Positions 8,120 through 61,011 of a stretch of 64,000 bases of DNA are shown here, piece by piece. The notes under the pieces are model-generated. The model made no database searches. It saw only the letters and a list, made by a program, of their open reading frames with translations, and was not told the origin of the DNA. The position numbers and the translations under genes are program-made. Source of the DNA: Romanomermis culicivorax (Eukaryota > Nematoda > Enoplea > Mermithida > Mermithidae); the NCBI GenBank assembly GCA_963922205.1, contig CAWUHX010000328.1, positions 1 through 64,000 on the forward strand, written 5' to 3'. Within the stretch, counting starts at the first letter, position 1. Every line of letters starts with the position of its first letter.

Positions 8120-8205
8120 CCGCGAATAGCTCAGTTGGTAGAGCGGAGGACTGTAGAACTGGTATAGATATCCTTAGGTCGCTGGTTCAAATCCGGCTTC
8201 GCGGA
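8120..8205 (+). tRNA. tRNA-Tyr (anticodon GTA) with 13-nt intron
   Basis: A full cloverleaf can be drawn. Acceptor CCGCGAA (8120-8126) pairs with TTCGCGG (8198-8204), with discriminator A at 8205. The D arm is GCTC/GAGC around AGTTGGTA. The anticodon stem GAGGA pairs with TCCTT, and GTA is at 8153-8155. The T arm is GCTGG-TTCAAAT-CCGGC. The intron is 8157-8169, one nucleotide 3' of the anticodon as in eukaryotic tRNA-Tyr genes. It leaves a 73-nt mature tRNA before CCA addition. The A box begins at 8127 and the B box GGTTCAAATCC is at 8184-8194. Confidence 0.95.
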
Positions 8206-18775: not shown

Positions 18776-18867
18776 ATGGCACCCTACAGAGATGTTTGGA
18801 CGCCCCTGTTTTTTGTTTTGATATTATTTGTTATGCTTAGTCGGCAAGTTTACGCTAGCCTAATCTA

Positions 18868-18896
18868 TGATAAGGCGACACTATAAACTGTTATCA
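18868..18896 (+). promoter_or_regulatory. Putative promoter of paralog A: GATA site, TATA box, second GATA site
   Basis: TGATAAG at 18868-18874, TATAAA at 18882-18887 and TTATCA (inverse GATA) at 18891-18896, about 40-70 bp before the ATG at 18936. The block from about 18830 (TATGCTTAGTCGGCAAGTTTA) is recognisably similar to the upstream regions of paralogs B and C. Confidence 0.55.
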
Positions 18897-18935
18897 CATT
18901 TACTTTCGAAAGAAATATTTTATCAAACTGCTACT

Positions 18936-21329
18936 ATGTTTATCCATATATTCTTACCAACTTTTCTTTTCTTGTCGTTCATCAACAATGTACAATCCAT
19001 ATCTTGTTGCAATACGCCTTATCCGGACGTCAAAATTTGGATCTCAGTTTCGGCTGCCGGGGTCGTCAACTACACTTTTTACGATATAATGGGCCAAATG
19101 AGGAAAATGTGGGCTTACGAAGTCGACGATACGGCTACCATTTTGAAAGATCGTAAAATTTTCCAAGCCGATATAAGGTCGTTATTATGCCCCCCGGGTT
19201 ACGCAACCGAAAGCCCGTACCATCAAGAAATGACTAGGTCGTGGCCTCGATGCAATATGTTGTGTTTGCAAAATAAGGCAAGTTTCAAACCCGATAAATG
19301 GTATGTCGTATGTCGGCAAAATTCGTGTCAGTCGTGCAATTTGGATAAGATGAAAAATACGGTAATTTTTTTAGACTATTTTCATATGTTATAACATGGC
19401 GTATGTTATAACATGGAATTTGTAATAACGTGGTATATCTTTAACATGAGACATATACCAACATGGTACATGTTATATCATGATATATGCTTTGGATAGG
19501 TCACAAAATTGGATGTTCAATAATATGGGATATGTTATAATGTGTGATATGTTTTAAGATAGTATATGTTATAGCATGTAATATGTAATAAGATGGTATA
19601 TCTTATAACATGGGATATTTAATAATATAGCATATGTTATAAGATTGGATACGTAATAACATGGAACATGGTTAAGCAAGGTATATATTGGAATATATTA
19701 TATTGTTTGATATAGTAAAACATGATATACGTGTTATAACATAGGACATGTAATAACATGGTATATGTTGCACAATTATACAAGATGGTACACAATATAA
19801 CACCACATATGCCCTAACATGAGATAGGGAATATTATGATATATGTTACAACAGAGAATATGTTTCAACATTGGATATATTGTAACATGTGATATCTAAT
19901 AGCATGGGATATGTAGGTACACATTTTAACATGAGATGTGCTATGGTCTGGTATATGTTACAACATGGGATATGTAATTACATGGCATATGTTATAATAC
20001 ACAATAATATGGAATGTAACATTGGATACGTTATAAATGCAATGGGTAATAACATGAGATATGTTGTAATATGGCATAATGTCGAAGACCTAGTAACATG
20101 GCATATGTTATAACACAGAGTATGTTTCAGCATTAGATATGTTATAACATCGGATATGTAATAGCATGAGATATGTTTTGATATAGCATGATGTTGAAGA
20201 TTGTATAACATGGTATATGTCATTACATACTATATGTTTTAAGTCTGCATATGTTATAACATGTGATATATAATAACATAGGATGTATCATAATGTGGGA
20301 TATGCTATAATATAGCATATCTTATAAAATGCCATATGTAATAACATGAGAAATATTATGTGGTGGGCTATGCAATGTGATATAGGTCGTAACATGGGAT
20401 ATGTTAAAATATGGGACATGCTATAACCTGACATATGTTACGACATAGGATATGTTATAAGATAGGATATGCTTTAATATGGATTAGGTTTTAAGGTGGG
20501 CATGTTATAAGATGAGATATGTTGTGACGTTGGATATGTTATAAGATGTGATGTGCTACAATGTGGGGTATGTTATAAAATGGGTATGATATAAAATGGT
20601 ATATGTTGTGACAGGGGATATGTTATAATATAAGATATGCTTTAACATAGCATAGGTTATAACGTGGGATATGTTATAACATAGGATATGATATAACATG
20701 ATATATGTTATAACATGCAATATGTGAAAACAGGAGAAATAATATAAGTTGGAATATACATGTTGTAACATTGGATATGTTATAAGATGGGATATGCTAT
20801 GACATGGTATATGTTAAAGTATACAATATGCTCTAACATGGGATAGGTTATAATGTGGGATATGTTATAAGATAGGATATGCTATAACATGGGATAGGTT
20901 ATATCCCATGGACCTGGGATATGTTATAAGATGGGATATGCTATAACATATGATAGATTTTTTTTCTTGATAAGAAGAATTACGTAATTTTAGAAAAAAC
21001 GCAATCCCGATTTCGTCAAACTCGATTCAGCGTCCATCGTCAACGATACGTTCTTCGCTCGTCTGACCATCCTCGAAAGTGGTATGCGTTACAACGTCAC
21101 TTTAAAACCCGGCTACTCGCAACCGTCAGTTTTAAATACGACCATCAAATTGGATGAAAAAAATTTGCTCCTAGAATTGCCGCATGTCAATCGAACCATT
21201 GACGCCCGATCGCCGTTCGTATTAAACGTAAAGCCGTGGTTGAAAGGCGACACTTTGCCGTGTAAAGTTGAGCCGGATTTTCAACATTTCACTTTGTATC
21301 AAAGTCATTTACGTCGTAATCAAAATTAA
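18936..21329 (+). CDS. Secreted cysteine-rich protein, paralog A (unrecognised family)
   Basis: Exon 1 is 18936-19361 and exon 2 is 20994-21329, with a phase-0 intron (donor ACG|GTAATT, acceptor TTTTAG). The product is 253 residues. I chose the ATG at 18936 because it directly opens a signal peptide (residues about 1-21) and lies about 50 bp past the TATA box. The mature part starts with a vicinal CC. It continues through KIWISVS, NYTFYDIMGQM, WAYEVD, CPPGY, KPDKWYVVCR and CQSCNLDKMKN in exon 1. Exon 2 has FVKLDSASIVNDTF, GMRYNV and KPWLKGDTLPC. Nine cysteines are present, eight of them shared with all paralogs. I do not know the family. The conserved Cys pattern suggests a disulfide-stabilised extracellular domain, and exon 2 has a beta-sandwich-like look. 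GATA motifs upstream suggest gut expression (inference). Confidence 0.8.
19380..20960. repeat. ATGTTATAACAT palindromic repeat filling the paralog A intron
   Basis: About 1.6 kb of loosely periodic copies (about 20-35 bp apart) of GATATGTTATAACATGG, with half-palindromes TATGTTATA/TATAACATA. It occupies nearly all of intron 19362-20993. The same palindromic core forms the 146-bp satellite at 58.4-60.96 kb. No coding or RNA gene is seen. Confidence 0.85.
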
Positions 21330-21394
21330 ATTCCCTGATTGTAAATTCGATTGCGTAAAACTATTGCGTAATTTACACATATTTTAGCATTTGT

Positions 21395-21690
21395 TACAGT
21401 ATGACCAGTTTTTTATGATGTGCAAGTACATTTCATGTAGTGCATTTTCCCGGAAAATTCTAGAAACTTGCGTAATCTTCTCTTCACGTACATTCTACGA
21501 TGTTCTAGAATATTCCGTGGTGGTATATAAGCCGTGTTATTTTGCTATTTGGTACATTACTATTGTATGTTGTGTTATTTAGCCTAATTAAACTTAGCTA
21601 TAGTATTCCAGTTGGATATTTACCAATTATGCCGAGGCTAATCTATTTTCAACTTAGTCCAGTCATTATTCAAGACACAACACATTTTTT
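21395..21690 (+). promoter_or_regulatory. Heat-shock-element/TATA cassette, copy 1
   Basis: HSE 1 reads GAAaaTTCtaGAA at 21453-21465, preceded by a degenerate TCC unit. HSE 2 reads TTCtaGAAtaTTC at 21503-21515. TATATAAG follows at 21524-21531. This is the arrangement of an HSF-driven promoter: alternating GAA/TTC units at 5-bp steps just upstream of a TATA box. The cassette opens with TTACAGTATGA and continues after the TATA box with a leader-like stretch (TTCCAGTTGGATATTTACC ... CAAGACACAACAC) to about 21684, which then runs straight into the T-rich array. No gene with an ATG and defined stop lies downstream. Confidence 0.7.
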
Positions 21691-24600
21691 TCACATTATT
21701 TCACAATTTTTTGCGTTTTTTGTGTTTTTTTACATTTTTTTGCTTTTTTGTGTTTTTTTTACATTTTTTTGTTTTTTGTGTTTTTTTATATTTTTGTGTT
21801 TTATGTGTTTTTTTATATTTTTTGTTTTTTTCTTTTTTTGTGTTTTTTTACATTTTTTGTTTTTGTTTTTTTTTTACATTTTTTTGTTTTTTGGGTTATT
21901 TTTTATTTTTCTGTTTTTTGTGTTTTTTTACATTTTTTTGTTTTTTGTGTTTTTTTTACATTTTTCTATTTTTTGTGTTTTTTTACATTTTTTTGTTTTT
22001 TGTGTTTTTTTATATTTTTGTGTTTTATGTATTTTTTATATTTTTTGTTTTTTGTGTTTTTTTTTACATTTTTTTGTTTTTTGTGTTTTTTTACATTTTT
22101 TTGTGTTGTTTTACATTTTTTTGTTTTTTTGTGTTTTTTTACATTTTTTGTTTTTTGTATTTTTTTTTGACATTTTTTTTGGCTTATTTTTTATTTTTCT
22201 GTTTTTTGTGTTTTTTACATTTTTTTGTTTTTTGTGTTTTTTTTACATTTTTCTGTTTTTTGTGTTTTTTTACATTTTTTGTTTTTTGTATTTTTTTTAC
22301 ATTTTTTTTTGGCTTATTTTTTATTTTTCTGTTTTTTGTGTTTTTTACATTTTTTTGTTTTTTGTGTTTTTTTTACATTTTTCTGTTTTTTGTGTTTTTT
22401 TACTTTTTTTTGTTTTTTGTGTTTTTTTTTACATTTTTTTGTTTTTGGGTTATTTTTTATTTTTCTGTTTTTTGTGTTTTTTTACATTTTTTTGTTTTTT
22501 GTGTTTTTTTTACATTTTTCTGTTTTTTGTGTTTTTTTACTTTTTTTTGTTTTTTGTGTTTTTTTGGGTTATTTTTTACTTTTCTGTTTTTTGTGTTTTT
22601 TTACATTTTTTTGTTTTTTGTGTTTTTTTTTTTACATTTTTTTGTTTTTTGTGTTTTTTTACATTTTTTGTTTTTTGTGTTTTTTTACATTTTGTTGTTT
22701 TTTGTGTTTTTTTACATTTTTTTGTTTTTTGTGTTTTTTTCTACATTTTTTTGTTTTTTGTGTTTTGCATCTTCTCGGTATTTTATTTTTTTCTATTCTT
22801 TCCATTATTTTCTGTTTTTGCGGTTTTTGGGGTTCTTGGCATTTCTAAACTTTTTCTGCTTTTTTTTATTTCACACGTTTTTGCATTATTCTACGTTTTT
22901 TGCATTTTTTGCATTATTTTGTCTTTTTAGGTTTTTTTGCATTTTTTAAATTTTTCTGTATTTTTTGGATTCTACGTGTTATTTCATATTTTGCATTATT
23001 TTGTATTTTTTTTGCATTTTTTGCTTTTTGGTGTTTTTTGCATCTTTTTAGTTTTTCATGTTTTTTGGCATTTTTTGCATTATTTTTTTTTGGAGTATTT
23101 TGCATTTTTTGAATTTTTCTTTATCATTTGTATTTTACACGTTTTTGCTTTTGTTGCATTATTTTGTGATTTTTGCGATTTTTACATTTTTTCGTTTTTT
23201 GACATTTTTTGTGTTTTTTGCATCTTCTCAGTATTTTATGTTTTTTTGTATTATTTCCATTATTTTTTGTTTTTGCGTTTTTTTGGAGTTTTTCGCATTT
23301 TTGAACTTTTTCTGTATTTTTCATTATTTCACACGTTTTTGCATTATTTTGTGTTTTTTTTACATTTTTTTCTATTTTTTGCAACCTATTAGTGTTTTAA
23401 GTGTTTTGCGTTTTTTGCATTATTTTGTCTTTTTGGGTTTTTTGCATTTTTTAAATTTTTCTGTATTTTTTGGATTTTACGTGTTTTTTCATATTTTGCA
23501 TTATTTTGTGGGTTTTTTTATTTTTTTTGCATTTTTTTGTTATTTTTTGGAGTATTTTGCATTTTTGGAATTTTTCTTTATCATTTGTATTTTACACGTT
23601 TTTACTTTTGTTGCATTATTTTGTGATTTTTGCGTTTTTTACATTTTTTCGTTTTTTGACATTTTTTTGTGTTTTTTGCATCTTCTCAGTATTTTATGTT
23701 TTTTTTGTATTCTTTCCATTATTTTTTGTTTTTGCGTTTTTTTGGAGTTTTTCGCTTTTTTGAACTTTTTCTGTATTTTTCATTATTTCACACGTTTTTG
23801 CATTATTTTGTGTTTTTTTACATTTTTTTCTATTTTTTGCATCTTTTTAGTATTTTATGTATTTTGCGTTTTTTGCATTATTTTGTCTTTTTGGGTTTTT
23901 TTGCATTTTTTAAATTTATCTGTATTTTTTTGGATTTTACGTGTTTTTTCATATTTTGCATTATTTTGTGTTTTTTTGTTTTTTTGCATTTTTCGCTTTT
24001 TGGTGTTTTTTGCATCTTTTTATTTTTTCATGCTTTTTTCATTTTTTGCATTATTTTTTTTGGATTATTTTGCATTTTTGGAATTTTTCTTTATCATTTG
24101 CATTTTACACGTTTTTGCTTTTGTTGCATTATTTTGTGTTTTTACTGTTTTTTACATTGTTTTGTTTTTTGTATTTTTTTTACATTTTTCTATTTTTTGT
24201 GTTTTTTTACATTTTTTTTGTTTTTTGTGTTTTTTTTACATTTTTTTGTTTTTTGGGTTATTTTTTATTTTTCTGTTTTTTGTGTTTTTTTACATTTTTT
24301 TGTTTTTTGTGTTTTTTTTACATTTTTTTGTTTTTTTGTGTTTTTTATATTTTTTTGTTTTTTGTTTTTTTTTACATTTTTTTGTTTTTTGTGTTTTTTT
24401 TACATTTTTTTGTTTTTTGTGTTTTTTTGCATTTTTTTGTTTTTTGTGTTTTTTTACATTTTTTTGTTTTTTGTGTTTTTTTACATTTTTTTTGTTTTTT
24501 GTGTTTTTTACATTTTTTGTGTTTTTTGCATCTTCTCAGTATTTTATGTTTTTTTCTATTCTTTCCATTATTTTGTGTTTTTGCGTTTTTTGGGGTTCTT

Positions 24601-26700
24601 GGCATTTTAAAACTTTTTCTGTTTTTTTTTTTATTTCACACGTTTTGCATTATTTTATGCCTTTTGCATTTTTTGCATTATTTTGCTTTTTTGGGTTTTT
24701 TTTGCATTTTTTCAAATTTATCTGTATTTTTTTTGATTTTACGTGTTTTTTCATATTTTGCATTATTTTGTGTTTTTTTTGTTTTTTTGCATTTTTTGCT
24801 TTTTGGTGTTTTTTGCATCTTTTTATTTTTTCATGCTTTTTTCATTTTTTGCATTATTTTTTTGGATTATTTTGCATTTTTTGAATTTTTCTTTATCATT
24901 TGTGTTTTACACGTTTTTGCTTTTGTTGCATTATTTTGTGTTTTTACTGTTTTTTTACATTTTTTGTTTTTTGTATTTTTTTTACATTTTTTTGTTTTTT
25001 TTTCGTTTTTTTTCGTTTTTTTACATTTTTTGTTTTTGTTTTTTTTCACATTTTTTGTTTCTTGTGTTTTTTTACATTTTTTTGTTTTTCGTGTTCTTTT
25101 TACATTTTTTTGTGTTTTTTGCATCTTCTCAGTATTTTGTGTTTTTTTGTATTCTCTCCATTATTTTTTATTTTTGCGTTTTCTGGGGTTTTTCGCATTT
25201 TTAAACTTTTTCTGTATTTTTTTTATTTCACACGTTTTTGCATTATTTTGTGTTTTTTAAATTTTTTCTTTTTTTTTGAATCTTTTTGGTATTTTATGTT
25301 TTTTGCTTTTTTTGCATTATTTTGTTTTTTGCATTTTTTGCATTTTTTTTGGAGTATTTTGCATTTTTTGAATTTTTCTTTATCATTTGTTTTTTTTCAC
25401 GTTTTTGCTTTTGTTGCATTATTTTGTGTTTTTTGTATTTTACGTGTTATCTTCTCAGTATTTTATGTTTTTTTTGTATTCTTTCCGTTATTTTTTGTTT
25501 TTGCGTTTTTTGGGGTTTTTCGCATTTTTAAACTTTTTCTGTATTTTTTTTATTTCACACGTTTTTGCATTATTTTTTGTTTTTTGTGTCTTTTTGTGGT
25601 TTTTTGCATTTTTTGCCTTTGTTGCATTATTTTGTGTTTTATAGTTTTTTTCCATTTGTTTTTTTGCATCTTTTTAGTATTTTATGTTTTTTTCATTCTT
25701 TGCATTATTTTGTGTTTTTTTTGTGTGTTTTTGTGTTTATTGCATTTTTTAATTTTTTCTTCATTTTTTTGGATTTCACGTGTTTTTTCATTCTCTGCTT
25801 TTTTCAGTGTTTTTTGCATTTTTAGGTTTTTTTTCTTTTTTTTCATTTTTTTGTATTTTACATGTTTTTACATTCTATGCATTATTTTGCGCTTTTGCGT
25901 GGTTTTTTGTGTTTTTTGCATTAAAAATTTTTTTTTGCATTTTTCAATTTATGTGTTTTTGCGTTCTCTGCGTTATTTTGTGTTTTTCGCATTAAACTGT
26001 AATTTTTTCATTTTTCTTTTTTGAATTTTTTATATTTTGCGTTTTTAAAATTTTTTACATTTTATGTTTTTTTCTGTGCTTTTTTGCCTTTTTTTATTTC
26101 TTTTGTTTTTACATGTTTTTGCATTCTTTGCACTATTTTATGTTTTTTACATTCTTGTTTGTTTTTGCATTTCTTGTATTTTTCTAATTTTTTGTCGTTT
26201 TTCTGCATTTTTGGCGTTTTTATGAGTTCTTTTTATCTTTTTTTGCATTATACTGTAATTTTTTCATTTTTCTTTTTTGAATTTTTGATATTTTGCGTTT
26301 TTTACATTTTCTGGGTTTTTTATTGTGCTCTTTTGTTTCTTTCTATCTTTTTCAGCATTTTTTGCTTTTTTGGATTTTATAATTTTTTGCGTTTTTTGTT
26401 TTTTTATTCAATTTTTGTCATATTTTACGTGTTTTTGCTTTATTTGGATTTTTTTGTGTTTTTTAACTTTATTTTGTTTTTTGGCATTTTTTGCATTTTT
26501 ATGCTTTTTCATGTTTTTTACTTCTTTTGTTTTTTGATAATTTCAGGGTTTTACAAAATAAAAAATGTAAAAACCTTACAATTTTGTTTTTTTTGTGTTT
26601 TTAAAAGAAGTTTCAAGATTTTATATATTTTTATTTTTTCTTGTGGACCAATTTTATTTTGTTTTTTGTTTGTAATTTATAGCATTTTTTCAGGTATGGT
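21685..26700 (+). repeat. T-rich tandem array (TTTTTTGTGTTTTTTTACA family)
   Basis: About 5 kb that is over 70 % T. From 21.7 to 22.75 kb it is a 27-29 bp unit TTTTTTACATTTTTTTGTTTTTTGTG. From 22.75 to 25.6 kb longer units of several hundred bp carry landmarks such as TTCACACGTTTTTGCATTATTTTG and TGCATCTTCTCAGTATTTTATG, recurring about five times. From 25.6 to 26.7 kb it is diverged. Open frames of up to 608 residues contain almost only F, L, C, V, I, Y and S and overlap in several frames, so I call no gene. Confidence 0.93.
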
Positions 26701-26978: not shown

Positions 26979-29653
26979 TCAATGACGTCTATCTTTTTCG
27001 GCCGATGATGAATCTTCGGCCAATTCGTTGATCGGAATTTCGACGCAAATATGTTTCGAGACATCAGCGGCCGCATTTTCCCCTGCGTTCAACGGTTTGA
27101 ACATTTTGAAGTAACATTGACCAAATTGGCTCACCAGTTGTCGACGGAATGGCTGTCGAAGCAAAGAAAAAATTGCCAGTGTTGTCACGTTACAAGTTAC
27201 AGTACACCTTTTGGGAGTTACAGGATTTTAGGAATTTCTTAAACTACAGTATCTAATGAAGAGATAATGTACAGTGTTTTTGCTCTTGCACCCGAACCAA
27301 TCCTCATAAATTTAGTATTTTTGGATTTGTCTCATCGAGTTCTATCGAATGGACTGTATTTCAACTGTATACGTTCATTTTTGACTGAGTTATGACAAGT
27401 TGAAAATTTACAGCATCAATTACAGTAATAACTTACATAATTTATAGCTTCTTGCTCCTGCACCCGATTCAATCCTCAGAAAATTGGTATCATTGGATTT
27501 GTCTCATTAAGATCTATCTAATGGACTGTATTTCAATCGTATATCTTCATTTTTGACTGAGTTATAACAAGTTGAAAATTTATAGAATCAATTACAGTGA
27601 CCAACTTACATAATTTATAGCTTCTTGCTCCTGCACCCGATCCAATCCTCACAAATTTTATACTTTTGGATTTGTCTCATCAAGTTCTACCCAATGGACT
27701 GTATTTCAATCGTATATCTTCATTTTTGACTGAGTTACGACAATTTGAAAATTTACAGTATCAATTACAGTGACCAACTTACATAATTCATAATATTTTG
27801 GTCCTGCACCCGAACCAATCCTCACAAATTTAGTATTTTTGGATTTGTCTCATCAAGTTCTATCGAATGGACTGTATTTCAAATGTATACATTCATTTTT
27901 GACTGAGTTATGACAAGTTGAAAATTTACAGTATCAATTACAGTAACCAACTTAGATAATTTATAGATTCTTGCTCCTGCACCCAAACAAATATTCAAAA
28001 AATTGGTATCATTGAATTTGTCTGATTAAGTTGTATCAAATAGACTGTATTTCAACTACATTAATTCATTTTTGATCGAGTTATCACAATTCAAAAATTT
28101 ATAGTATCAATTACAGTAACCAACTTACATAATTTTTGGGTTTTTGTTTTCTGCAGCTGACTTAATCCTCAAAAAGTTGGTATTATTGGATTTGTCTCAT
28201 CAAGCTCTATCTAATGAACTGTATTTCAACTGTATAGGTTCATTTTTGATCGAGTTATCTCAATTTAAAATTTACAGTATTAATTACAGTAACCAACCTA
28301 AATAATTTATTTTTTTTCCTCCTGCACCAGTTTTAATCCTGAGAAACTTGATATCATTGGATTCCTCTAATTAAATTCTATCCAATGGAGTGTATTTAAA
28401 TTGTAGATGTTCATTTTTGATTGAGTAACCACAATTTAAAAATCTACAGTATCATTTACAGTAGTCAACTTACATAATTTTAATTTTTTTTCTCCTGCAC
28501 CCGGCCCAATCCTCAGAAAATTGGCATTGTTGGACTCATCTCATCATGTTCTATCTAATGGACTGTATTTCAACTGTATAGGTTCTTTTTTTATTGGATT
28601 ATCACAATTCAAAAATTTACAGTATCAATTACAGTAACCAACATAAATAAATTATGGCTTTTTACTCCTGCACCCAACTCAATCCTCAGAAATTTGATAC
28701 TATTGGATTTGTCCCATCAAATTCTATCCAATGAACTGTATATACACTGTACTGGTTCATTTTTGATTGAGTTATCACAATTTAAAAATTTACAGTATCA
28801 ATTACAGTAATCAATTTACATAATTTATAGTTTTTACCTCCTGCACTCAAACTAATGTCAACAAAAGTAGTATCATTGAATTTGTCACATAGAGTTCTGT
28901 TTAATGAACCACTTTCCAATTGTATATCTCCATTTTTGATCAAGTTATCACGTTTTGAAAACTTACGGTATCAATTACAGTAATCAACTCGTATATTTTA
29001 TAGAATTCTGATCCTGCACCCGAATGAATGGTAAGATAATTGGTATCATTGCATTGGGTTCATCGAGTTCTTTCTAGGGGAGTTTGTTTCAACTCTATAT
29101 CTTCATTTTTGATTGAGTTATCTTATTTTAGAAAATTTACAGTAACCTTTGTTGAGTCAAAAATACAAAAGTACAGTTTTTGGCTGCTGTACCAAACATA
29201 ATACTAATAAATTTGGTGTCATTCGACTCGTCTCATTGAGTTCTATGCAATGAAGTATGTTTCAAGCTTATACCTACATTTTTCATTGAGTTATCGCCCT
29301 TCAAAATTTTACAGTATCACCTACAGTAACCAACTTACATATCTTTGTTTGGCCAAAAACACAACTTTATAGTTAGTTCCATCAACGACTTGTTCTATAG
29401 CTTGCTCGGCTTTCACGAAATTGGTGTAGGCGGCACCCGGCGGATTGGTCTTTTGTAGCTCGTACAAGCTCATTCGGACCAGGTGTTCGACATCATCCTT
29501 TTCACGCTGGTCCTGCAAGTCCACCTGGCGCCAGCCTCCGGGCATGGACGACACTTGTTTGCTCAGGTCGGGAATGAGGCCCGGTTGGTTGGGCACGAAA
29601 TGCAAGCCCGAAGCGACAACCAACAGTGCGGGAATCAAGTAGAAAAAGCGCAT
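26979..29653 (-). CDS. Secreted cystatin-type cysteine protease inhibitor
   Basis: Exon 1 runs from the ATG at 29653 down to 29339 and exon 2 from 27152 to the stop at 26979. The intron is phase 0, with donor TAT|GTAAGT and acceptor CTTTGCTTCGACAG on the minus strand. The 162-residue product starts with a signal peptide (about residues 1-16). It has the three cystatin landmarks in order: a glycine pair before the first strand (PGG at 38-40), the first-hairpin loop QVVDG at 88-92 (family Q-x-V-x-G), and a C-terminal second-hairpin region CYFKMFKP in exon 2, where the usual Pro-Trp is not kept. Two cysteines (GQC and HIC) could form one disulfide. Cystatins block papain-like proteases (cathepsins L/S/B); secreted nematode cystatins can act in digestion, moulting or host interaction. 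Exon 1 is certain in kind; the exact exon 2 start is inferred from frame. A TATA box and paired GATA sites lie upstream. Confidence 0.82.
27265..29335 (-). repeat. About 172-bp intronic satellite carrying repeated splice-donor copies
   Basis: Roughly 12 diverged units, period about 170-175 bp. In plus-strand terms each has CTCCTGCACCCGA, AATCCTCA, GGATTTGTCTCATCAAG, TGGACTGTATTTCAA, TTCATTTTTGA, GAGTTAT and ACAGTATCAATTACAGTAACC, then AACTTACATAATTTATAG. The last block is the reverse complement of the cystatin exon 1 donor region (TTATGTAAGTTGGTTACTGT). Homologous positions lie near 27437, 27606, 27778, 27953, 28126, 28298, 28470, 28641, 28815, 28987 and the true junction at 29338. Confidence 0.85.
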
Positions 29654-29702
29654 GGTCAAAGTTAGGAATGAATGGAAAATGCCCTGGCAGCAAAGTTTTG
29701 AG

Positions 29703-29795
29703 CTTATAAAGCAAAAGCAGAGTGTATTTTCGACAACGTTTGGCAAGTTCGTAAGACAAAAAAGTTTGCTTGACAGATTTTATTTTATCTTATCT
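29703..29795 (-). promoter_or_regulatory. Cystatin promoter: TATA box and paired GATA sites
   Basis: On the minus strand TTTATAAG (plus 29703-29710) lies about 50 bp before the cystatin ATG. Overlapping AGATAAGATAA (plus 29785-29795) lies about 80 bp further upstream. The geometry fits a TATA promoter with an upstream GATA-factor site. Confidence 0.6.
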
Positions 29796-32250: not shown

Positions 32251-32289
32251 AAGAACAAGCTGTAATATTGTAAAGACAAGAATTGTAGA

Positions 32290-32520
32290 ATCTTACAGTA
32301 TGATCACATGATATGATGTGCAGGTATATTTCATGTACTGCATTTTCCTGGAAAGTTCCAGAAACTTTGGCAATATTTGTTCATGTACATTCTACAATGT
32401 TCTAGAATATTCCGTGATGGTATATAAGCCGTGCATGGTCATTCATTTCTTTATTTTGATATTCAGTAAATTATGAGTGTATTTTGTGTTAGTTAGCCTT
32501 ATTAAACTTAGCTATTGCGA
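32290..32520 (+). promoter_or_regulatory. Heat-shock-element/TATA cassette, copy 2
   Basis: Aligns with copy 1: TTACAGTATGATC, then HSE 1 GAAagTTCcaGAA at 32351-32363, HSE 2 TTCtaGAAtaTTC at 32400-32412 and TATATAAG at 32421-32428. The downstream stretch GTGTTAGTTAGCCTTATTAA also matches copy 1. It runs directly into the TATATGTAT microsatellite. Paralog B begins about 750 bp further on, but its own start-proximal elements look separate. Confidence 0.7.
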
Positions 32521-32529
32521 AGGATAGTA

Positions 32530-33020
32530 TTACAGCATTATAGCTGTATTATATGTGTTATACATATTATAGGTATTATATGTGCTATATGTATTATATC
32601 CATTATATCTTTTACATGTGTTGTATGTATTATATGTATTACATGTATTTTGTGTATTATATGTGTTATGTCTATTATACGTATTATACGTGCTATATGT
32701 ATTATATGTATTACATGTGTTTTATGTATTATATGTATTTTGTGTATTATATGTATTATACGTGCTATAAGTATTATATGTAATATATGTATTATATGTA
32801 TTACATGTGTTATATGTATTATGTGTATTATATGTATTATATGCATTATATGTATTATAGGTATTATACATATTGTATGTATTATACATGCTATATGTAC
32901 TACATGTGTTATATGTATTATATGTATTATGTGTATTATATGTATTATATCTATCATATGTAATATATGTATCATATGTATTCTATTTATTATATATATA
33001 TTATATGTATGTATTATTAC
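32530..33020. repeat. 9-bp (TATATGTAT)n microsatellite
   Basis: About 490 bp of TATTATATG/TATTACATG units with scattered variants. Open frames on both strands contain only I, C, H, Y, T, M and V. Like the array before paralog A, this is a 9-bp AT-rich repeat just upstream of a member of the same gene family. Confidence 0.9.
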
Positions 33021-33095: not shown

Positions 33096-33175
33096 TGGCA
33101 GTTTATACCAAGTTTGAGCAATGATAACAGTGAGCTCTATAGAACAATTTTCTAAATTCCAAAAAACCTTATCAT
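33096..33175 (+). promoter_or_regulatory. Upstream region of paralog B with GATA sites
   Basis: TGATAAC at 33122-33128 and TTATCA at 33169-33174, within 60 bp of the ATG. ATGCTTAGCTGGCAGTTTATAC at about 33088 matches the corresponding block before paralog A. No clear TATA box is seen. Confidence 0.4.
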
Positions 33176-33182
33176 TGCCAAA

Positions 33183-34052
33183 ATGCTCACGCACTTACTT
33201 CTACCAAGTTCCCTAATTTTCGTTTTGCCCAACCTAGAAACATCAACGGGATGCTGCAATACACCGTACCCAAACTCCAAAATTTGGATTTCGGTTTCAC
33301 GGCCAATCGTCAACTATACTTTCTACGATATAATGGGCCAAATGAAGAAAATTTGGGCTTACGAAGTCGACGAAACAGCTACGCTTTTGAAAAATCGTAA
33401 AATTTTCGAAGCCAATACGGCCTCGTTGCTTTGCCCCGCCGGTTACAAAACTGAAAGCCCTTACCATCATGAATTTACGACGTCGTGGCCGTGCAACGTG
33501 TTGTGTCTGCATAAAAGTGGTCAAATTTTCAAACCCGACAAGTGGTACGTCATTTGTCGAGAAAATTCTTGTCAATCGTGTAATTTGGATAGGATGCGAA
33601 ATTCGGTAAGTCGCCTCATATTTTAAACGAGAATTTTTTCCCATAATGACAATGTTGCGAAACTTTTGGTCAAGTGCAAATCACTTCCACTCTGAATATA
33701 GATTTTTTCCATTTAGAAGCGTAGTCCCGAATTCGTCAAACTGGATTCGGCTGCTATTGCAAATGATACTTTCACAGCTCGTCTAAAAGTATTGGAGTCC
33801 GGCATGCGTTACAATGTCAGTTTGGAACCGGGTCATTTCTTGCCCTCAATTTTGAACATCACTATCCAAGTAGATGAAAACAAAGCTATCCTGGAACTAG
33901 CGGACGTGAACCAAACACTTTCCGCCGAATCACCGATTGTACTGAAAGTGACGCCGTGGTTGAAAGGCGACACTTTACGGTGCAAAATTGCGCCCAGTGT
34001 TCAATATATCACGTTGTATCAGAGATATCTACGTCCTGAAAAGTCAAATTAG
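33183..34052 (+). CDS. Secreted cysteine-rich protein, paralog B (unrecognised family)
   Basis: Exon 1 is 33183-33605 and exon 2 is 33717-34052, with a 111-nt phase-0 intron (TCG|GTAAGT ... CCATTTAG). The product is 252 residues with a signal peptide (about residues 1-22). Exon 2 is exactly as long as in paralogs A and D (336 nt). It shares GCCNTPYP, KIWISVS, NYTFYDIMGQMKKIWAYEVD, ESPYHHE, KPDKWYVICR and CQSCNLDRMRN with A, then FVKLDSA and VTPWLKGDTLRC. All eight family cysteines are kept, plus the extra one before LCLH that A also has. It is the closest relative of A in the window. Function is unknown; probably extracellular. Confidence 0.83.
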
Positions 34053-41878: not shown

Positions 41879-43160
41879 ACCTCGCAATTTTGATTTTTGC
41901 AAATATTCCAAAAATTCATTTATTTTCTAGAAATTTACAGTTTTACACATTTTTTAGGTTTTTTTTTGTTTTTTTAATAAAAATTTTACTTTTTTGCTTC
42001 CTCAACAGGATGCTAAAAAGTTAAATTTCACCCTGAAAACCCTCAATTGTTTGCTTCAAATGTGCTTACATGGCATATTTATGCTAGTGAAGTTGATGAT
42101 AAGGCAGCAGTCCAGGTTGCTGTCGCCCTAAATTTGGAAAAATATTCCATCTGTTGTAGTGTGTTTCGGCCGATTTTGCTATTCATTCGTAAATTTTGTC
42201 GATTTTCGTATGAGGCCTGCAAGTACAAAGTGGAGCGAGCAATGCGGACCATCGACAGTCGTCTTACTGTAGCACATGTCATCAGGCGTGCATTTGGCCT
42301 CTCTCGTATTCTTGTTATTGGTATACTTATCATTGATATATTTTTATGGGTTTTCGTTCGCCTCCCAGCATGCCCCGCCTTCTTGTTGTTTTCTCACAGC
42401 ATTTGGGAGTGATTGTCACATTGCCTGCTTCCTGTAGGACCTCGCATTTTTGATTTTTGCAAATATTCCTAAAATTTATTTATTTTCTAGAAATTTACAT
42501 TTTTACACATTTTTTAGGCTTTTATGGTTTTTTTAATCAAAATTTTACTTTTTTGATTCCTCGACAGGATATTAAAAAGTTAAATTTCACCCCCAAAAAC
42601 CCCTCAATTGTTCGGTTCAAATGTGCTTACACGGCATATTTATGCTAGTGAAGTAAATGATAAGGCAGCAGTCCAGGTTGCTATCATCCTAAATTTGGAA
42701 AAATATTCCATCTGTTGTAGTGTGTTTCGGCCGATTTTGCTATTCATTCGTAAATTTTGTCGATTTTGGTAGCAGGCCGGCAAGTACAAAGTGGAGCGAG
42801 CAATGCGGACCATCGACAGTCGTCTTACTGTAGCACATGTCATCAGGCGTGCATTTGGCCTCTCTCGTATTCTTGTTATTGGTATACTTATCATTGATAT
42901 ATTTTTATGGGTTTTCGTTCGCCTCCCAGCATGCCCCGCCTTCTTGTTGTTTTCTCACAGCATTTGGGACTGATTGTCACATTGCCTGCTTCCTGTAGGA
43001 CCTCGCATTTTTGATTTTTGCAAATATTCCTTAAATTCATTTATTTTCTAGAAATTTACATTTTTACACGTTTTTTAGGCTTTTATGGTTTTTTAATCAA
43101 AATTTTACTTTTTTGATTCCTCAACAGGATATTAAAAAGTTAAATTTCAGCCCCAAAAAC
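41879..43160 (+). repeat. Tandem copies of the paralog C 5' flank with dispersed element copies 6 and 7
   Basis: Units of about 550 bp start at GACCTCGCA(A)TTTTTGATTTTTGCAAATATTCC (41879, 42438, 43000). They continue through TTTACACATTTTTTAGG, AGGATATTAAAAAGTTAAATTTCA and TGCTTACATGGCATATTTATGC. The two complete ones then run on through the CATCGACAGTCGTCTTACTGTAGCAC element to CACAGCATTTGGGA. The third unit passes into paralog C. TGATAAGGC is kept in both complete units (about 42088 and 42657). Confidence 0.85.
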
Positions 43161-43217
43161 CCCTGGGTTGTTTGTTTTAAATGTGCTTACTTGGCATGTT
43201 CATGCTAGTGAAGTAAA

Positions 43218-43224
43218 TGATAAG
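43218..43224 (+). promoter_or_regulatory. GATA site upstream of paralog C
   Basis: TGATAAG at 43218-43224, about 58 bp before the ATG at 43282. It lies in the block GCTAGTGAAGTAAATGATAAGGC, which matches GCTAGCCTAATCTATGATAAGGC before paralog A. Confidence 0.45.
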
Positions 43225-43281
43225 GCAGCAGTCCAGGTTGCTATCATCCTAAATTTGGAAAAATATTTTATTGACGCTATC

Positions 43282-44134
43282 ATGCTTTCCCGTACATTAC
43301 TACAAGCTGCAATTTTTTTCTTCACCAATCAAAAAATTATTGTCGGTATAGTATCGACATCATCTTGTTGCAAATATCCCTATCATCCGAATGCCAAAAT
43401 TTGGATCAATGTTTCGTCATCTTCAGTCGTCAACTTTTCATTCTACGATATGAGGGACAAAATGAAGAAAATGTGGGCTTACGAAATTGACCAATCGGCA
43501 ACCATTTTGAAAGATGCAAAAATTTTTCGAAGCCGATACGACATCGTTGTCGTGCCCGCCCGGTTACCAAACCAAAAGCCCCTACCACAGAGATCTGGTC
43601 AAATTTTGGCCTCGAAGCAAAATTTTGTGTTTGCACGAAAATGCTCAAGCCAGGCGAAATTTGAAACCCGACAAATGGTACGTCATATGCGGCGAAAGCA
43701 CCTGCGAATCGTGTTTTTTGGATAGGATGAAAAATTCGGTAAGATGTGCCTTACTCATCGCTTTGCTTGCTAAATTGTATACAATTCAGGTTAAATGGAA
43801 CGAAACCAAATTCGTGAAACTCGACTATGCAAGCATTGTAAATGACACTTTCACGGCTCATCTAACGGTACTCGAGTCCGACATGCGCTTCAATATCAGC
43901 TTAGAACCTGAAAATTTTGGATTGTCGTTATTGAACGTGACTATCGGATCCAACGAAAAGAATGCCGTCGTAGAACAACCCGGAGTTAGTCGGATGATCA
44001 GCGCGGGCTCGCTCATCGCACTACGCGTCAAGCCGTGGTTGACCAACGATGCTTCAGGTTGCACTGTTGGAACAGATTCTCAAACTATTTTCTTGTACGA
44101 GACAAATTTACGTGCTTGGCAAACCAAGCGTTGA
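43282..44134 (+). CDS. Secreted cysteine-rich protein, paralog C, with one-base frameshift
   Basis: Exon 1 is 43282-43738 and exon 2 is 43790-44134, with a 51-nt phase-0 intron (TCG|GTAAGA ... ATTCAG). Up to GATGCAAAAATT the reading frame matches A and B (KIWINVS, MKKMWAYEIDQSATIL). It then breaks at the T-run 43523-43527: one T too many relative to the paralogs. The +1 frame resumes at once with FEADT, CPPGYQTKSPYH, KPDKWYVIC and CESCFLDRMKN. All splice sites and exon 2 (FVKLDYASIVNDTF, KPWLTND) are intact and free of stops. A single homopolymer insertion with everything else preserved points to a sequencing error or a very young pseudogene. The signal peptide is less clean than in A and B (a polar stretch around residue 15). 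It has eight family cysteines and lacks the extra cysteine of A and B. Confidence 0.7.
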
Positions 44135-45281: not shown

Positions 45282-45350
45282 CGCCAAATATTGCTAACGC
45301 ATTGATAAACTTTGTTATTTCATCATATTTTAGAGTATACATTAGCAAAA

Positions 45351-46638
45351 ATGACGAAATTTTTACTTTTTCTTTCGGCAATTTTTTACGTTTCGTACGC
45401 TATTCGTACCACTACGACAGCTTCGCGACGATCTTCCGTCGACGCCGCGGGATGTTGTACGATGACCGTCTATCCGGAAGGCAAAGTTTGGATTAGTACG
45501 GCGGCCCAACCGACACCGACTGACGATCGACCGCCGGCCGTCGGAGCATTCCGCGAATCGACTCAAATTGGTTCGGCGAAACGCAAAAGCGCCGTACGAG
45601 GCTCGGCCCAACCGATTGCGCAACCGGTCGCCCGAAGCGCCGCCTCCATCAATTATACGTTATACGACCCGTACGGCATAATCACCAAAGTTTGGGCTTA
45701 CGACGTCGATCAATCGGGAGCAATTTTGAGCCATAAAAAAGTGTTCGAAGCCGACGCCGACACGTTGAAATGCCCGGCCGGCTATACGACCGACAATCCC
45801 GAACACAAAGAAATGACGAAAGGAGCGCACGCCCAAACGCTTTGTCTACAACAGAACGGGTTGGCGGCGCAAAATTTGAAACCTGACAAATGGTACGCTA
45901 TTTGTCGCGAACGATCGTGCAATACTTGCCATTTGGACAAGATGAAAAATACGGTAAGCAGGCCCCGCCTACTTTTGTTGTACTCATAGATCGTCCTTAA
46001 TGTACGTATTTCCCGCACCCACGCTTACCCGATTAACTTAATTAATAGTACTTAAACTCGACACTGATTACCCTACCAATCAAGAAAAGGTACTTCTCCC
46101 GAATTAAAATGAACACAGGAAAGGAAACCGCGTACCGACGTGTGCTACAGTAAGATGGCTGTTGATGGTCCCCATGGCTCACTCCACTTGGTACTTGCGG
46201 GCCTCATGCACCAATCGACAAAACTGACAAAATCGGCGGAAACACACTGCAACACTTTTTTTTCACAATCGCTCCATTTTAAACCTACACTTTTTTTTCT
46301 AGAAAAAGTTTCCCGAATACGTTAAAGTCGAATCGGCCAAAATTCAAAACGACAAGCTCGTTATACAAATGTCGGTTTTGGAAGCCGGTATGCGCTATAA
46401 TGTAAGCGTCGAAGTTGGCGCCGGTCGACCCGCGTTGGCCAACGCGACAATTCCGGCGAGCCAAACGACGGCGTCGATCCAAGTAACGAACCCGCCCGAT
46501 ACGATCTATCGCCTACCGATGTACGTACACGCTACTCCGTGGCCTAAAATCGATGGCGTCACGTGCGGCGTTTCGTCTCGACGTCAATTGGCCATCGTGC
46601 CGCCTATTAAAAAAGTTGGAGCGTTGAGCCGGGAATGA
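45351..46638 (+). CDS. Secreted cysteine-rich protein, paralog D, with Pro/Ala-rich insert (unrecognised family)
   Basis: Exon 1 is 45351-45953 and exon 2 is 46303-46638, with a phase-0 intron at the same codon as in A-C (ACG|GTAAGC ... TTTTTTTTCTAG). The product is 312 residues with a clear signal peptide (about residues 1-17). It is the most diverged member: GCCTMTVYPEGKVWIS, then an insert of about 50 residues rich in P, A, R, S and T (about residues 52-100) that the other paralogs lack. Then come NYTLYDPYG, VWAYDVDQSG, CPAGYTTDNPEH, KPDKWYAICRERSC and LDKMKNT. Exon 2 has the family ATPWPKIDGVTC end. Eight family cysteines are kept. Codon use is GC-richer than its neighbours. The insert holds KRKS and could be a processing or linker region. 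Function is unknown. Confidence 0.83.
46130..46260 (-). repeat. Dispersed element copy 8, inverted, inside the paralog D intron
   Basis: Read on the minus strand: TGTTGCAGTGTGTTTCCGCC, GATTTTGTCAGTTTTGTCG, GCCCGCAAGTACCAAGTGGAG, GGGGACCATCAACAGCC and ATCTTACTGTAGCACACG. These align block by block with the copies at 35.8, 42.1 and 42.7 kb, in opposite orientation. Confidence 0.8.
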
Positions 46639-46831: not shown

Positions 46832-48905
46832 ATGAATTTTTGCGTTGCTCTAGCCACAATATTATGTTATATTACACGGAGAGGTAAGCCAAAATTGGTA
46901 GTTTCCCGTAAATTTGATGTTTCAAAATATGCTAAATTTCTAGGTTTAAGTGGCTTCTCGGAATCTTACCCGCATTTTAATACGACCGATGACTCGGATG
47001 TTGAAAACTTTTCTACGCAAATGCTTGCGCAAGCTATTTCGTCAGTTATGGCTGCTACGGCTACTAAAATGATGATCAACGAAGATGCTGCGAGCGTTGA
47101 ATCGTGCACGCAAACGGCTCAAGATTTGTCGGAATACGCTCAATGTCTAGAACCATTGTGGAATCACGCTGAGTAAAATCGGAGGTCACTTTTCGGAGAC
47201 GCTATCCAAACTTTTTTTGTCCATTTTAGGCTACACGACAGAGCGAAAAAAAGTATCGAATCGGCGCAATGGTCGCAAATGAATGACGAAAATCAGCGTT
47301 CGATGAAAAAAGTTGCAGCCGCGGCTCCAAGGGCCAAATCGCCGATTGGTCACGTGGCAGATTTTTTCACTTCCTTATTCGCAAAACCTAAAATTGAAAA
47401 ATACAGTAACCCAAAAATATTTTTTTGTAAAGTTTCATCTTGTAAATTTTCCTATAGAAAAACCTGCATCCGATGATTCGAACATTATGGCCGGAACTTT
47501 AGTCGAATCGTTCGTACACAAATTGTTCGAGCCCGTCGATGGACTAATAGACGCGATTCACAGCGACGATGAGGAAAATGATGACGAGCCGCTTACGATA
47601 AAAAACAAAATGGCCGATTTTGTCGAAAAGATGAAAAAAAGCGAAAATTTTCAGCGATTAATGTCGACGAGACCCAAAAATCAATTGGAATTGTTGGAAG
47701 TGAGGCAAAAAAGTCTCGAATTTGCCTCCCGTGTATGATTTTTCCACCTTTTTTTCTAGAATATTCAACAACTGGTATCGAATTTGACTCGCGAAACTCC
47801 GTCGAGCGTCAAAAATGATGAGAACGCGTTCATTTTGTCGCCGCGATTTTTCCCCGTTAGTCGGCCGGAGAAAGGTCGGCGTCTATTATCGCCTGATATT
47901 TTCAGTTTCGATCACGACTCGACAAAGAAAAAATCCATCATCGACGCCGAAAATATCGCTCCGATGGACAAATTATTCGATGCCGCATTAGTCGAAGGTG
48001 ATCGCCGATCGTTGAAACGATTTATCATGCGATTATCGGGTGCCGAAGAAAAATTGAAAAAAAAGACGACAATGAGGGCATCGATAAGCAAAAATGACAA
48101 AAAGTTGAACAACGCTTTTCGACGTTTGTACGAAAGCGTTCACGCTGATCAAGTCGATGAATTGGCTCGGAATGGGTACGCTTTTTTGACGAAAAAGCAG
48201 ATGCAGATTTTTTATGGTGGAAAAAGACCGATTGTCGATAGCTATTACGGGAACGCGACATTGCGGAGCCAAATGCATAAAATTGTAGACAAGCGGGACG
48301 CGTTGGTACGATATTTCAAAAGTGCGGCCAATGGAGAGGGACTTCGATCAAAAAGGGCCGTCATAGGCAATGCTAGTGTATTGGCGCCCTTCATCCTAGC
48401 TCCGCAGGCTGCCAACCCCATAATCCTGCACCCTTTGGTCCTTTCACCCTTGGTTCTATCCCCCAGTGTCCTTGGCCCTTTGATCCTTTCCCCGGCTCTT
48501 TTCTCCCCTTTGGTCCTCTCACCCTCCGTCCTAGGCGGAGCCGTCCTCAGCCCCCTAGTTGGCGACGCTTTAGTTCTTTCCCCGTTGGTCCTCTTCCCGA
48601 TCATCCTAAGCCCCCTACTATTGAGCCCCCTTATTTTGAGCCCCCTCCTTTTGACCCCTATAGTATTGTCCCCGTTGGTCCTAAGTCCCGTTATTTTGTC
48701 GCCGTTAGTTCTATCGCCCGTCGTTCTATCGCCCGTCGTACTGTCGCCTTTGGTTTTGAGCCCCGGCTTGCTAAGCCCGCTGGTGCATAGTCCCGTAGCA
48801 TCGGGCGTGAAGATGTTGTCGCCGGAGTTGATGTCGCCGAGCGTACATTCACCGAAGACGAACTACACGGTGGTGATGTCGCCGTCGATTCTATCCAAAA
48901 AGTGA
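46832..48905 (+). CDS. Moulting-cycle MLT-10-like secreted protein
   Basis: Five exons as read here: 46832-46883, 46944-47172, 47230-47405, 47458-47699 and 47760-48905, giving 614 residues. An N-terminal hydrophobic segment (MNFCVALATILCYIT) acts as signal peptide. Residues about 20-430 are the mixed charged N-terminal part typical of the moulting-cycle (DUF644-like) family. RSKR at about 429-432 is a furin-like site. From about 438 to 590 follows a run of hydrophobic P-x-x-L-S-P repeats (ILSPLVLSPVVLSP type), the hallmark of C. elegans MLT-10, a secreted hypodermal protein needed for moulting. The first intron (60 nt, a multiple of three) can also be read through. The last intron could use either of two donors (GTGAGG at 47700 or GTATGA at 47733). 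The gene is convergent with the GPCR gene. Confidence 0.85.
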
Positions 48906-49376: not shown

Positions 49377-50699
49377 TCAATCTGATTTCATATCAATGGA
49401 TTCATCGGCGCAACAACTGTCGACAAAACTGGTATGGTTTTTCCTAACGACGGAGTGTAGGCTCGTCAACGGCACGCCGCCATTTTGGAAATGTCTCGCT
49501 AAAGGGTTAGGTCTAATACTCAGACAATTATGTTTACACAAGTCGGGACACCGACCCCGCGTATGTTGTTCGCTGGACCCCGACGCCCGGTTAGCCGTCA
49601 CGACTGTTCGATCGTGCCATCGTAGGACGCTATTCACCGAATAATGAAACGATAGAAATTTTTCTCGCAATATACGTTTGAAAGGTTCGGTGAGCAAAGC
49701 ATAGACGACGGGATTGATTGCGCAATTTAAATACGGCAATGCGTGTACGGCATTGAACGCTATTCGAAAATACCAATATTGGATATAGTACGGGTTTAAT
49801 AATACGATCAACGACATTATCCAAACGGGGCTCCAACATACGACGAATACGACGACCAACAATAATACTAATCTTGTTACTTTTCTATAAGCGTATTGTT
49901 TTTGTCGATTGCGTAATCGTTCCCGAGCTCGACGCGACGCGCGCATCAGACGCCTCAAAACTTTAAACGAAAAAAATGTAATGACCACCGTAGGCAAAGC
50001 GAAACAAAATACGAACGTATAAAGCGTGAAATAATATTCGGTCGGATTGGTCTCGTCATTGTCGGTGGCGGCTTCTTCTTCTTCGATCATTTGTTCGATA
50101 TTGGACTCGTTAACGTCCCACGATTGCGTGTCGCCGGGCCATCGGAAACTACAAATGGACAAATTGGAACCGATGTCGATAACGCCGCTATACATATAGG
50201 CCGGCATCATGGGCACCGTAATCAAGAGCCATCCGAAAATTGCGACATATTTGGCCATTTTTTGCGTACGATGAATTTTACACCAATTCGAATGGCACAA
50301 GGCTAAATAACGATCGATGGTCAATATGGTCATAAAGTAGATGGACACGTATTTGGCCGTACTATCGGCGATATGGAATAATTTGCAAACGACGGGCCCC
50401 AACGTCCAATTTTGCGTCAGTTGGAACATTACGACGCACGGTAAAAATAGAACGTAGATTAGATCGGCTAGCGACAAATTGAAAATGTAGACGTTGGTCA
50501 CCGTTCGCATACGTCGAAAGCCGATGATCATAATCAACGTTACCAGGTTTAATAATCCCGATAAAAACATTATCAAATATAAGATCATAAATCCCCATAA
50601 TACGTACGTGTTGAAATAATATTCCGTCGATATTATATTCGTCGACGAAGACAAATTTTCAAATTCAAGATTTAAAAGCCATATAGACGAACTATTCAT
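49377..50699 (-). CDS. Class A peptide GPCR, somatostatin/allatostatin-C-receptor-like
   Basis: A single-exon gene of 440 residues. The N-terminus has NSS and NLS glycosylation sites. Seven hydrophobic segments begin at about residue 33. Class A landmarks are all present: NLSLADL in TM2, C105 at the TM3 top pairing with C183 in loop 2, DRYLA at 129-133, CWSPVW in TM6 (about 278-283) and NPVVY in TM7 (309-313). Extracellular loop 2 is long and acidic (EQMIEEEEAATDNDE). The C-tail is long with CC near the end. The SLADLIYVLFLPC, TLGPVVCK and TILTIDRYLA pattern places it with the somatostatin/opioid/allatostatin-C group of neuropeptide receptors by resemblance; the ligand is not determinable. 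The ATG at 50699 follows an acceptor-like TTTTTACAG. Lack of introns hints at origin by retrocopy or intron loss. Confidence 0.93.
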   Translation of the reverse strand: MNSSSIWLLNLEFENLSSSTNIISTEYYFNTYVLWGFMILYLIMFLSGLLNLVTLIMIIGFRRMRTVTNVYIFNLSLADLIYVLFLPCVVMFQLTQNWTLGPVVCKLFHIADSTAKYVSIYFMTILTIDRYLALCHSNWCKIHRTQKMAKYVAIFGWLLITVPMMPAYMYSGVIDIGSNLSICSFRWPGDTQSWDVNESNIEQMIEEEEAATDNDETNPTEYYFTLYTFVFCFALPTVVITFFSFKVLRRLMRASRRARERLRNRQKQYAYRKVTRLVLLLVVVFVVCWSPVWIMSLIVLLNPYYIQYWYFRIAFNAVHALPYLNCAINPVVYALLTEPFKRILREKFLSFHYSVNSVLRWHDRTVVTANRASGSSEQHTRGRCPDLCKHNCLSIRPNPLARHFQNGGVPLTSLHSVVRKNHTSFVDSCCADESIDMKSD

Positions 50700-50720
50700 C
50701 GTTGTTGAGCGGCTTACGAA

Positions 50721-50730
50721 CTGTAAAAAT
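50721..50730 (-). promoter_or_regulatory. Candidate trans- or 5'-UTR splice acceptor of the GPCR gene
   Basis: On the minus strand GATTTTTACAG ends about 21 nt before the ATG, a nematode-like acceptor with a short leader. A spliced-leader exon or a distant 5' UTR exon could be joined here; no matching donor can be assigned. Confidence 0.4.
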
Positions 50731-50741
50731 CGAAACGGTTA

Positions 50742-60960: not shown

Positions 60961-60998
60961 GTTATAACATAGGACTATGTTATGTAGATTTTACAATG

Positions 60999-61011
60999 TT
61001 CTAGAACATTC
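60999..61011 (+). promoter_or_regulatory. Isolated heat-shock element, remnant cassette copy 4
   Basis: TTCtaGAAcaTTC preceded by TTTTACAATG, the same context as HSE 2 of copies 2 and 3 (CTACAATGTTCTAGAA). No TATA box follows, so it is probably a truncated cassette at the end of the 146-bp satellite. Confidence 0.5.

Follow-up and report, generated by a model that had tools for sequence, protein, structure and literature searches.

The DNA analysed here comprises the first 64,000 nucleotides of contig CAWUHX010000328.1 of the mosquito parasite Romanomermis culicivorax (C328:1-64000; hereafter the window), and carries near 21.4 kb a compact cassette in which two heat-shock elements (HSEs) lie just 5' of a TATA box, with a long T-rich tandem array downstream. 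A preliminary description of this DNA had drawn attention to the arrangement and to similar cassettes near 32.3 and 51.7 kb, and had suggested that heat shock induces transcription of the repeat arrays, as for human satellite III and for Drosophila hsr-omega, a heat-shock parallel for repeat transcription. Our analysis, with genome searches over the assembly of 359,112,060 bases in 595 contigs, bears out this layout (Table 1). HSE-B ends 7 bp before TATATAAG, and its core 8 bp before it; the downstream stretch is tandem repeat only, as reported by Tandem Repeats Finder, and both further cassettes were found. The cassette family proves to be a multi-copy Ty3/Gypsy long terminal repeat (LTR) retrotransposon, whose LTR holds a U3 region with two HSEs, a TATA box, a candidate poly(A) signal and U5.

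Matches to the HSE core are more frequent in the window than expected. With up to two mismatches, TTCTAGAAYATTC is found 26 times, against an expectation of 5.4 and with none of 100 shuffles reaching 26; TATATAAG is found six times against 2.5 expected. Five matches to TTCTAGAAYATTC are exact (21503, 32400, 47754, 51742 and 60999), one of which, at 47754 within TTTTTTTCTAG/AATATTC directly 5' of an open reading frame, looks like a splice-acceptor coincidence.

Table 1. Features of the HSE-bearing LTR copies and adjoining arrays on C328 (window positions; copies beyond the window in contig positions).
Feature	Position	Strand	Remarks
Candidate 5' target-site duplication CATAT	21378-21382	+	partner CATTT 21683-21687, 4/5 match; tentative
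Worn solo LTR, Ty3/Gypsy family	21383-21682	+	start uncertain, 21383-21394; 3' end ...GACACAACA exact at 21682
HSE-A	21452-21466	+	three contiguous perfect units: GAA 21453-55, TTC 21458-60, GAA 21463-65
HSE-B	21492-21516	+	five-unit register: TTC, degenerate second unit, TTC-GAA-TTC
HSE-B core TTCTAGAATATTC	21503-21515	+	
TATA box TATATAAG of LTR promoter	21524-21531	+	
ATTAAA, candidate poly(A) signal of LTR	21587-21592	+	putative function
T-rich tandem array	21706-26509	.	Tandem Repeats Finder rows; 4.8 kb
Second LTR copy	32284-32520	+	boundaries approximate; 3' end lost at start of TGTATTATA array (32545-33010)
Third LTR copy	51728-51904	+	5' truncated, HSE-A lost; 3' end ...GACACAACA, then second T-rich array
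HSE-B-like fragment	60989-61011	+	adjoins TATAACAT-type array; no TATA box
C328 copies running into T-rich sequence	21.4 kb, 51.7 kb, 341597-341876, 342236-342409, 342604-342863, 343288-343529		

The cassette belongs to a dispersed repeat family with defined ends. Comparison of positions 21381-21690 with the genome, in which 40 of 820 first-look candidates were scored, gave at least 44 matches on many contigs; 36 of these reach query position 297-310, a common 3' end ...GACACAACA beyond which the flanks mostly differ. The exact 21-mer at this end, GTCATTATTCAAGACACAACA, occurs 112 times in the genome (57 and 55 by strand; 0 for the reversed control), with mostly unrelated flanks at the 30 places fetched. 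The 5' end of the family is TGATACATATCTTACAG, which lies in partial tandem units of about 49 bp, a copy having between one and four of them. The termini are of the form TG...CA, and they are bounded by target duplications, for which a length of 5 bp was the only one tested. In a first set of 14 copies, 48 of 70 flanking bases match (23.3 in shuffles) and seven copies match at four or more of the five positions, where 1.0 would be expected; in a second set of 20 copies the corresponding values are 68 of 100 (32.1 in shuffles) and 13 copies (1.3 expected), six of them perfect. None of 20,000 shuffles reached the observed match in either set. The first set omits three duplicates (L006, L018 and L028), copies whose alignment stops short of the 3' end, and ten copies with no recognisable end, among them the window copy (L003); the second omits four copies adjoining gag or integrase and six with no recognisable 5' start. 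Two copies are shared between the sets, and a few others in the second are related by duplication. As copies were drawn from similarity or exact-end searches, well-kept ones are over-represented. When the flanks of the first copies were compared all against all, duplications and scattered other repeats appeared, none regularly placed beside the LTR. Three groups of copies (L043, L044 and L045; L037 and L038; L040 and L062) have in common, downstream of the LTR, some 370 bp to 1.5 kb that was not seen as gag-pol; these are possibly duplications.

The coding sequences associated with these LTRs place the element in the Ty3/Gypsy class. Directly 3' of the LTR end, L050, L051 and L061 carry a gag-like frame, broken in the first two, and then a retropepsin; a CCHC motif can be read by eye in the gag-like frame of all three, a part of the element that Pfam did not recognise. 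On contig C24 (L051 and L063) the Pfam domains Asp_protease_2/RVP, RVT_1, RT_RNaseH, Integrase_H2C2 and rve follow one another in separate open pieces. The position of the integrase after reverse transcriptase and RNase H gives the Ty3/Gypsy order and differs from the Copia arrangement, in which integrase comes before reverse transcriptase. L050 and L051 (C24:1157658 and C24:1175479) form an inverted pair with 99.97% identity, separated by about 18 kb and representing either a palindrome or an assembly artefact.

A genome search with the C24 integrase returned 120 matches, of which the weaker belong to other families. At 12 of the 16 best-match loci fetched (L070 and L071 being near-identical) an LTR of the present family lies within about 130 bp downstream of the integrase, and two of the four loci that have none are inverted C24 duplicates. 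When 100 listed LTR places were paired with 46 of the 120 integrase matches (those left out were for the most part distant matches or additional fragments of copies already represented), a same-strand integrase was found within 8 kb of 20 LTR places. The preliminary description had named, as an outcome that would speak against heat-inducible arrays, genome-wide copies mainly preceding a transposon open reading frame; this holds in part, in that the family is a retrotransposon LTR, but the remaining listed places have no such integrase match within that distance. Most copies read look like solo LTRs, not promoters of element genes.

Further features were seen at the inner LTR boundaries. A purine tract directly precedes the 3' LTR in all eight loci where its start could be placed (GGTGAGGAGGAG in seven, GGTGAGGATGAG in one), two of which are near-identical; the other four of the 12 LTR-bearing loci gave no usable boundary. 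A TTYGGC motif resembling a primer-binding site stands directly 3' of each of the six 5' LTRs fetched (TTTGGC in five), and at this position L050 and L051 have TTGTGA and L061 has TTTGGT. The two LTRs of an element on C197 agree at 334 of 371 positions and are flanked by CCAGC and CCAAC, and those of a C75 pair agree at 308 of 362, with flanks GGTGA and GGCGG that match at only three of five positions; the C220 pair (46.5%) is not usable, because its 3' LTR was wrongly placed in the comparison. Apart from the C24 pair, in which the gag frames are broken, the full-length integrase matches of the family carry stops, though no dedicated search for an intact element was made. The integrase resembles those of K02A2.6-like Ty3/Gypsy elements: its ten best relatives, including fly proteins named K02A2.6-like (45% and 53%) and a Trichuris suis protein at 46%, are 42-53% identical, and all 103 matches span 29-53%. 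The integrase search gave no close named family, and this likeness is one of integrase sequence.

HSEs are widespread among the LTR copies. Among the 56 copies that are 200 bp or longer (exact duplicates removed, near-duplicates kept), 44 contain three or more contiguous perfect alternating GAA/TTC units, compared with 0.05 per 56 in a first-order Markov control, and 20 contain four or more. A TATATAA-type box is present in 33 copies and is combined with an HSE of at least three units in 26. In the 40 copies where it could be measured, the spacing between the HSE-B core and the TATA box is 18 bp (n = 20), 28 bp (n = 14), 8 bp (n = 4) or another value (n = 2). A step of 10 bp amounts to roughly one turn of the helix, which would leave the HSE facing the same side of the DNA at each of the three main spacings.

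To relate the LTR to satellite DNA, Tandem Repeats Finder arrays of at least 150 bp that fill a 150-bp flank were counted, as seen from the LTR side only. Arrays of this length make up 53% of the window. They fill the 3' flank of 6/56 copies and the 5' flank of none, with 12/82 control positions filled. Off C328 the figures are 2/50 for the 3' flank and 0/50 for the 5' flank, against 6/73 control positions; no genome-wide link to array edges is thus seen from the LTR side, and the expectation of the preliminary description that cassettes would recur at such edges fails beyond this contig. On C328 itself, of which the window and the last 3.9 kb were read, T-rich satellite lies 3' of six of the seven copies seen, and the 5' flanks of these six differ; the seventh, at 32.3 kb, is cut off by the TGTATTATA array. 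A long CAGACC-type hexamer array at 50940-51720 stops directly 5' of the third window copy.

The C328 copies hold some indication of how this adjacency arose. The copy at C328:341597-341876 is embedded in T-rich sequence, which adjoins it on either side, with CATCT before it and CATTT after it, as expected for insertion into the satellite. The spacing from the TATA box to a TATTC motif, measured in 44 of the 56 copies and in the 51.7-kb copy, is 14 bp in four C328 copies (21.4, 51.7, 342.6 and 343.3 kb) and in 0/41 of the others; a form private to these four points to local duplication. An exact-string search for the C328-type deletion found only C328:51785 and C328:343439; this agrees with local duplication but is weak evidence, since it is chiefly the first base of the string that sets it apart from undeleted copies. 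The adjacency of LTR and satellite on C328 is best explained by insertion into satellite followed by local duplication.

Taken together, these data make it very probable that the 21.4-kb cassette is a worn solo Ty3/Gypsy LTR with a U3 predicted to respond to heat-shock factor (HSF), which would have been inserted into satellite DNA and locally copied. To judge from its sequence, the retrotransposon seems to have adopted the host heat-shock switch, and the cassette seems not to be a promoter dedicated to satellite DNA. Some observations weigh against this interpretation. The HSE columns are not better conserved than their surroundings (majority frequency 0.872 and 0.889, compared with 0.882 for the LTR overall; the TATA columns reach 0.93), and so do not indicate that single copies persist on account of their HSEs. 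Wear at the 5' edge of the window copy leaves its target duplication at 4/5 and uncertain, and the automatic end test found no 5' start. The C328 copies at 341.6 and 342.2 kb do not have the 14-bp form, so that not all C328 copies belong to one duplication series. Finally, one insertion followed by duplication only partly accounts for a constant 3' satellite with varied 5' flanks. The LTR copies look like decaying descendants of HSE-bearing parents and not like individually preserved promoters. As to the possibility, named in the preliminary description as one that would refute it, that the three cassettes are mere debris, the window copies are worn remnants with HSE columns no better kept than their neighbours.

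A promoter maintained for transcription of the satellite, in the manner of human satellite III or hsr-omega, would account for the orientation of the cassette toward the array, for its strong HSEs and TATA box, and for the arrays found 3' of all seven C328 copies (T-rich in six, of another type in the seventh). The lack of an edge link off C328, the identity of the family as a retrotransposon LTR, and HSE columns without excess conservation argue against it, and the ATTAAA at 21587 could stop RNA short of the array; we regard such a promoter as improbable. Of the reading in the preliminary description, the strong HSE and TATA arrangement pointing at the array and the C328 adjacency are supported, and a genome-wide link to array edges is not. 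Slightly less improbable, though still unlikely, is the joint spread on C328 of the LTR and T-rich satellite as a composite unit whose leading edge would be the LTR. This would fit the six copies with a T-rich 3' side and differing 5' flanks, the 14-bp spacing shared by four of these six, and the restriction of the deletion-type string to two C328 sites. However, in three of the six the LTR is broken off internally, at differing 3' points, the copy with T-rich sequence on both sides fits insertion into satellite, and the exact string misses two of the four copies with the 14-bp spacing.

Two other origins can be rejected with near certainty. An HSE followed by a TATA box is the standard arrangement of a heat-shock protein (hsp) promoter, and the cassette might on this basis be the promoter of a host hsp gene or part of an hsp pseudogene; the 112 exact copies of the 3' end, with their mostly unrelated flanks, the linkage to integrase and the target duplications contradict this, and the frames listed between 21690 and 26700 yield low-complexity products of the repeat itself (not run against Pfam). 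Nor is the cassette an HSE-carrying Helitron or short DNA transposon: Helitrons leave no target duplication, and the copies here have 5-bp duplications, TG...CA ends and an LTR linked to the integrase of a gag-pol element. The precedent for this alternative is the HSE-bearing Helitrons documented in Caenorhabditis (PMC6927752).

The solo-LTR interpretation leads to a model for how the element would behave. Under heat stress the host HSF would bind the HSEs of U3, and RNA polymerase II would start about 25-30 bp 3' of the TATA box. Contiguous nGAAn units are the binding sites of HSF trimers, which activate promoters in their vicinity, and in LTR elements the U3 region of the LTR is the promoter; it follows as a prediction that complete elements would be transcribed on heat shock. 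The RNA produced on heating would then serve both gag-pol expression and the making of new copies, so that transposition would be coupled to the host heat-shock response as in the Arabidopsis element ONSEN. Heat inducibility of the element is plausible on these sequence grounds. On C328, an LTR would have inserted at a CATTT-type site of the T-rich satellite, with later local copying of the region along the contig. Transcription from the 21.4-kb copy, if it still fires, would start near 21550-21560 and could either end after the ATTAAA at 21587 or continue into the U-rich array; heat-driven satellite RNA, including read-through from this copy, is possible. That a family with unusually HSE-dense LTR promoters has spread more than 100 potentially HSF-responsive starts through the genome, with several at the 5' edges of C328 T-rich arrays yielding U-rich satellite RNA on heating, is a speculative extension that we think unlikely to hold. 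If true, such RNA would represent an independent, transposon-made counterpart of satellite III.

Heat-activated LTR elements and transposon-borne HSF-1 sites are already known. ONSEN (ATCOPIA78) is a heat-activated LTR retrotransposon of Arabidopsis whose LTR contains a heat-responsive element, nTTCnnGAAn, bound by heat-shock factor (PMC3907296). The present element likewise has a heat-responsive element in its LTR, with HSF binding shown for ONSEN and predicted here; in contrast to ONSEN, a Copia-type element for which binding and induction are both established, it is a nematode Ty3/Gypsy element with two longer HSE clusters per LTR, described from its sequence. Caenorhabditis Helitrons, including Helitron1_CE, carry HSEs and show HSF-1 association and heat induction (PMC6927752, PMC6765114). 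They too are a transposable element family spreading HSEs through a nematode genome, but as rolling-circle DNA transposons, whereas the R. culicivorax family consists of Ty3/Gypsy LTRs for which heat induction is predicted. Human satellite III is activated by HSF1 (PMC9032817), and shares with the present locus a heat-shock-type promoter sequence adjoining tandem repeats; the locus differs in that no match to the HSE core TTCTAGAAYATTC (at most two mismatches) occurs inside the T-rich array at 21706-26509, in that the promoter comes from an LTR, and in that the association is seen on a single contig.

At the level of titles and listings, we found no report in the open-access literature of an HSE-bearing Ty3/Gypsy LTR in a nematode, nor an account of the present family. 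The consulted parts of the two R. culicivorax genome papers speak of LTR elements or repeats in general, with no mention of Gypsy, and those of the 2013 paper, the one of the two searched for it, do not mention heat shock. The element may already be present in the transposon library of the 2024 genome paper with its HSEs unremarked. The puzzling position of a promoter before a satellite becomes a concrete and testable example of apparent exploitation of an animal heat-shock response by a retrotransposon. As its copies are numerous and dispersed, they could supply heat-responsive promoters to genes of this mosquito parasite.

The window also contains a number of features outside the LTR copies and arrays. 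At 18864-21329, 33156-34052, 43144-44134 and 45309-46638 lie four genes that resemble one another, apparently have at least two exons each and encode small, secreted-looking proteins; BLAST aligns the second and the third with the last exon of the first (67.5% and 59%), the fourth is alike by eye, and two pieces of the first gave no Pfam match when scanned. A frame at 47760-48902 encodes a Moulting_cycle domain (PF04870, E 2.1e-11) with a long LSP-rich repeat tail. On the reverse strand, 49380-50738 is a single open frame of 453 aa for a rhodopsin-family seven-transmembrane receptor (PF00001, E 2.5e-47), and 29324-29779 has a weak cystatin match (PF00031, E 0.0003) just below the gathering score. 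ARAGORN, run with the bacterial code, reported nothing in the window, including at 8120-8205 on the forward strand, where Rfam places a tRNA (61.1 bits) whose length suggests an intron. Elsewhere in the genome, at about 600 kb and inside contig C168, the LTR fragments L001 and L002 lie beside GCCTAA arrays, which we take to fit the nematode TTAGGC telomere type.

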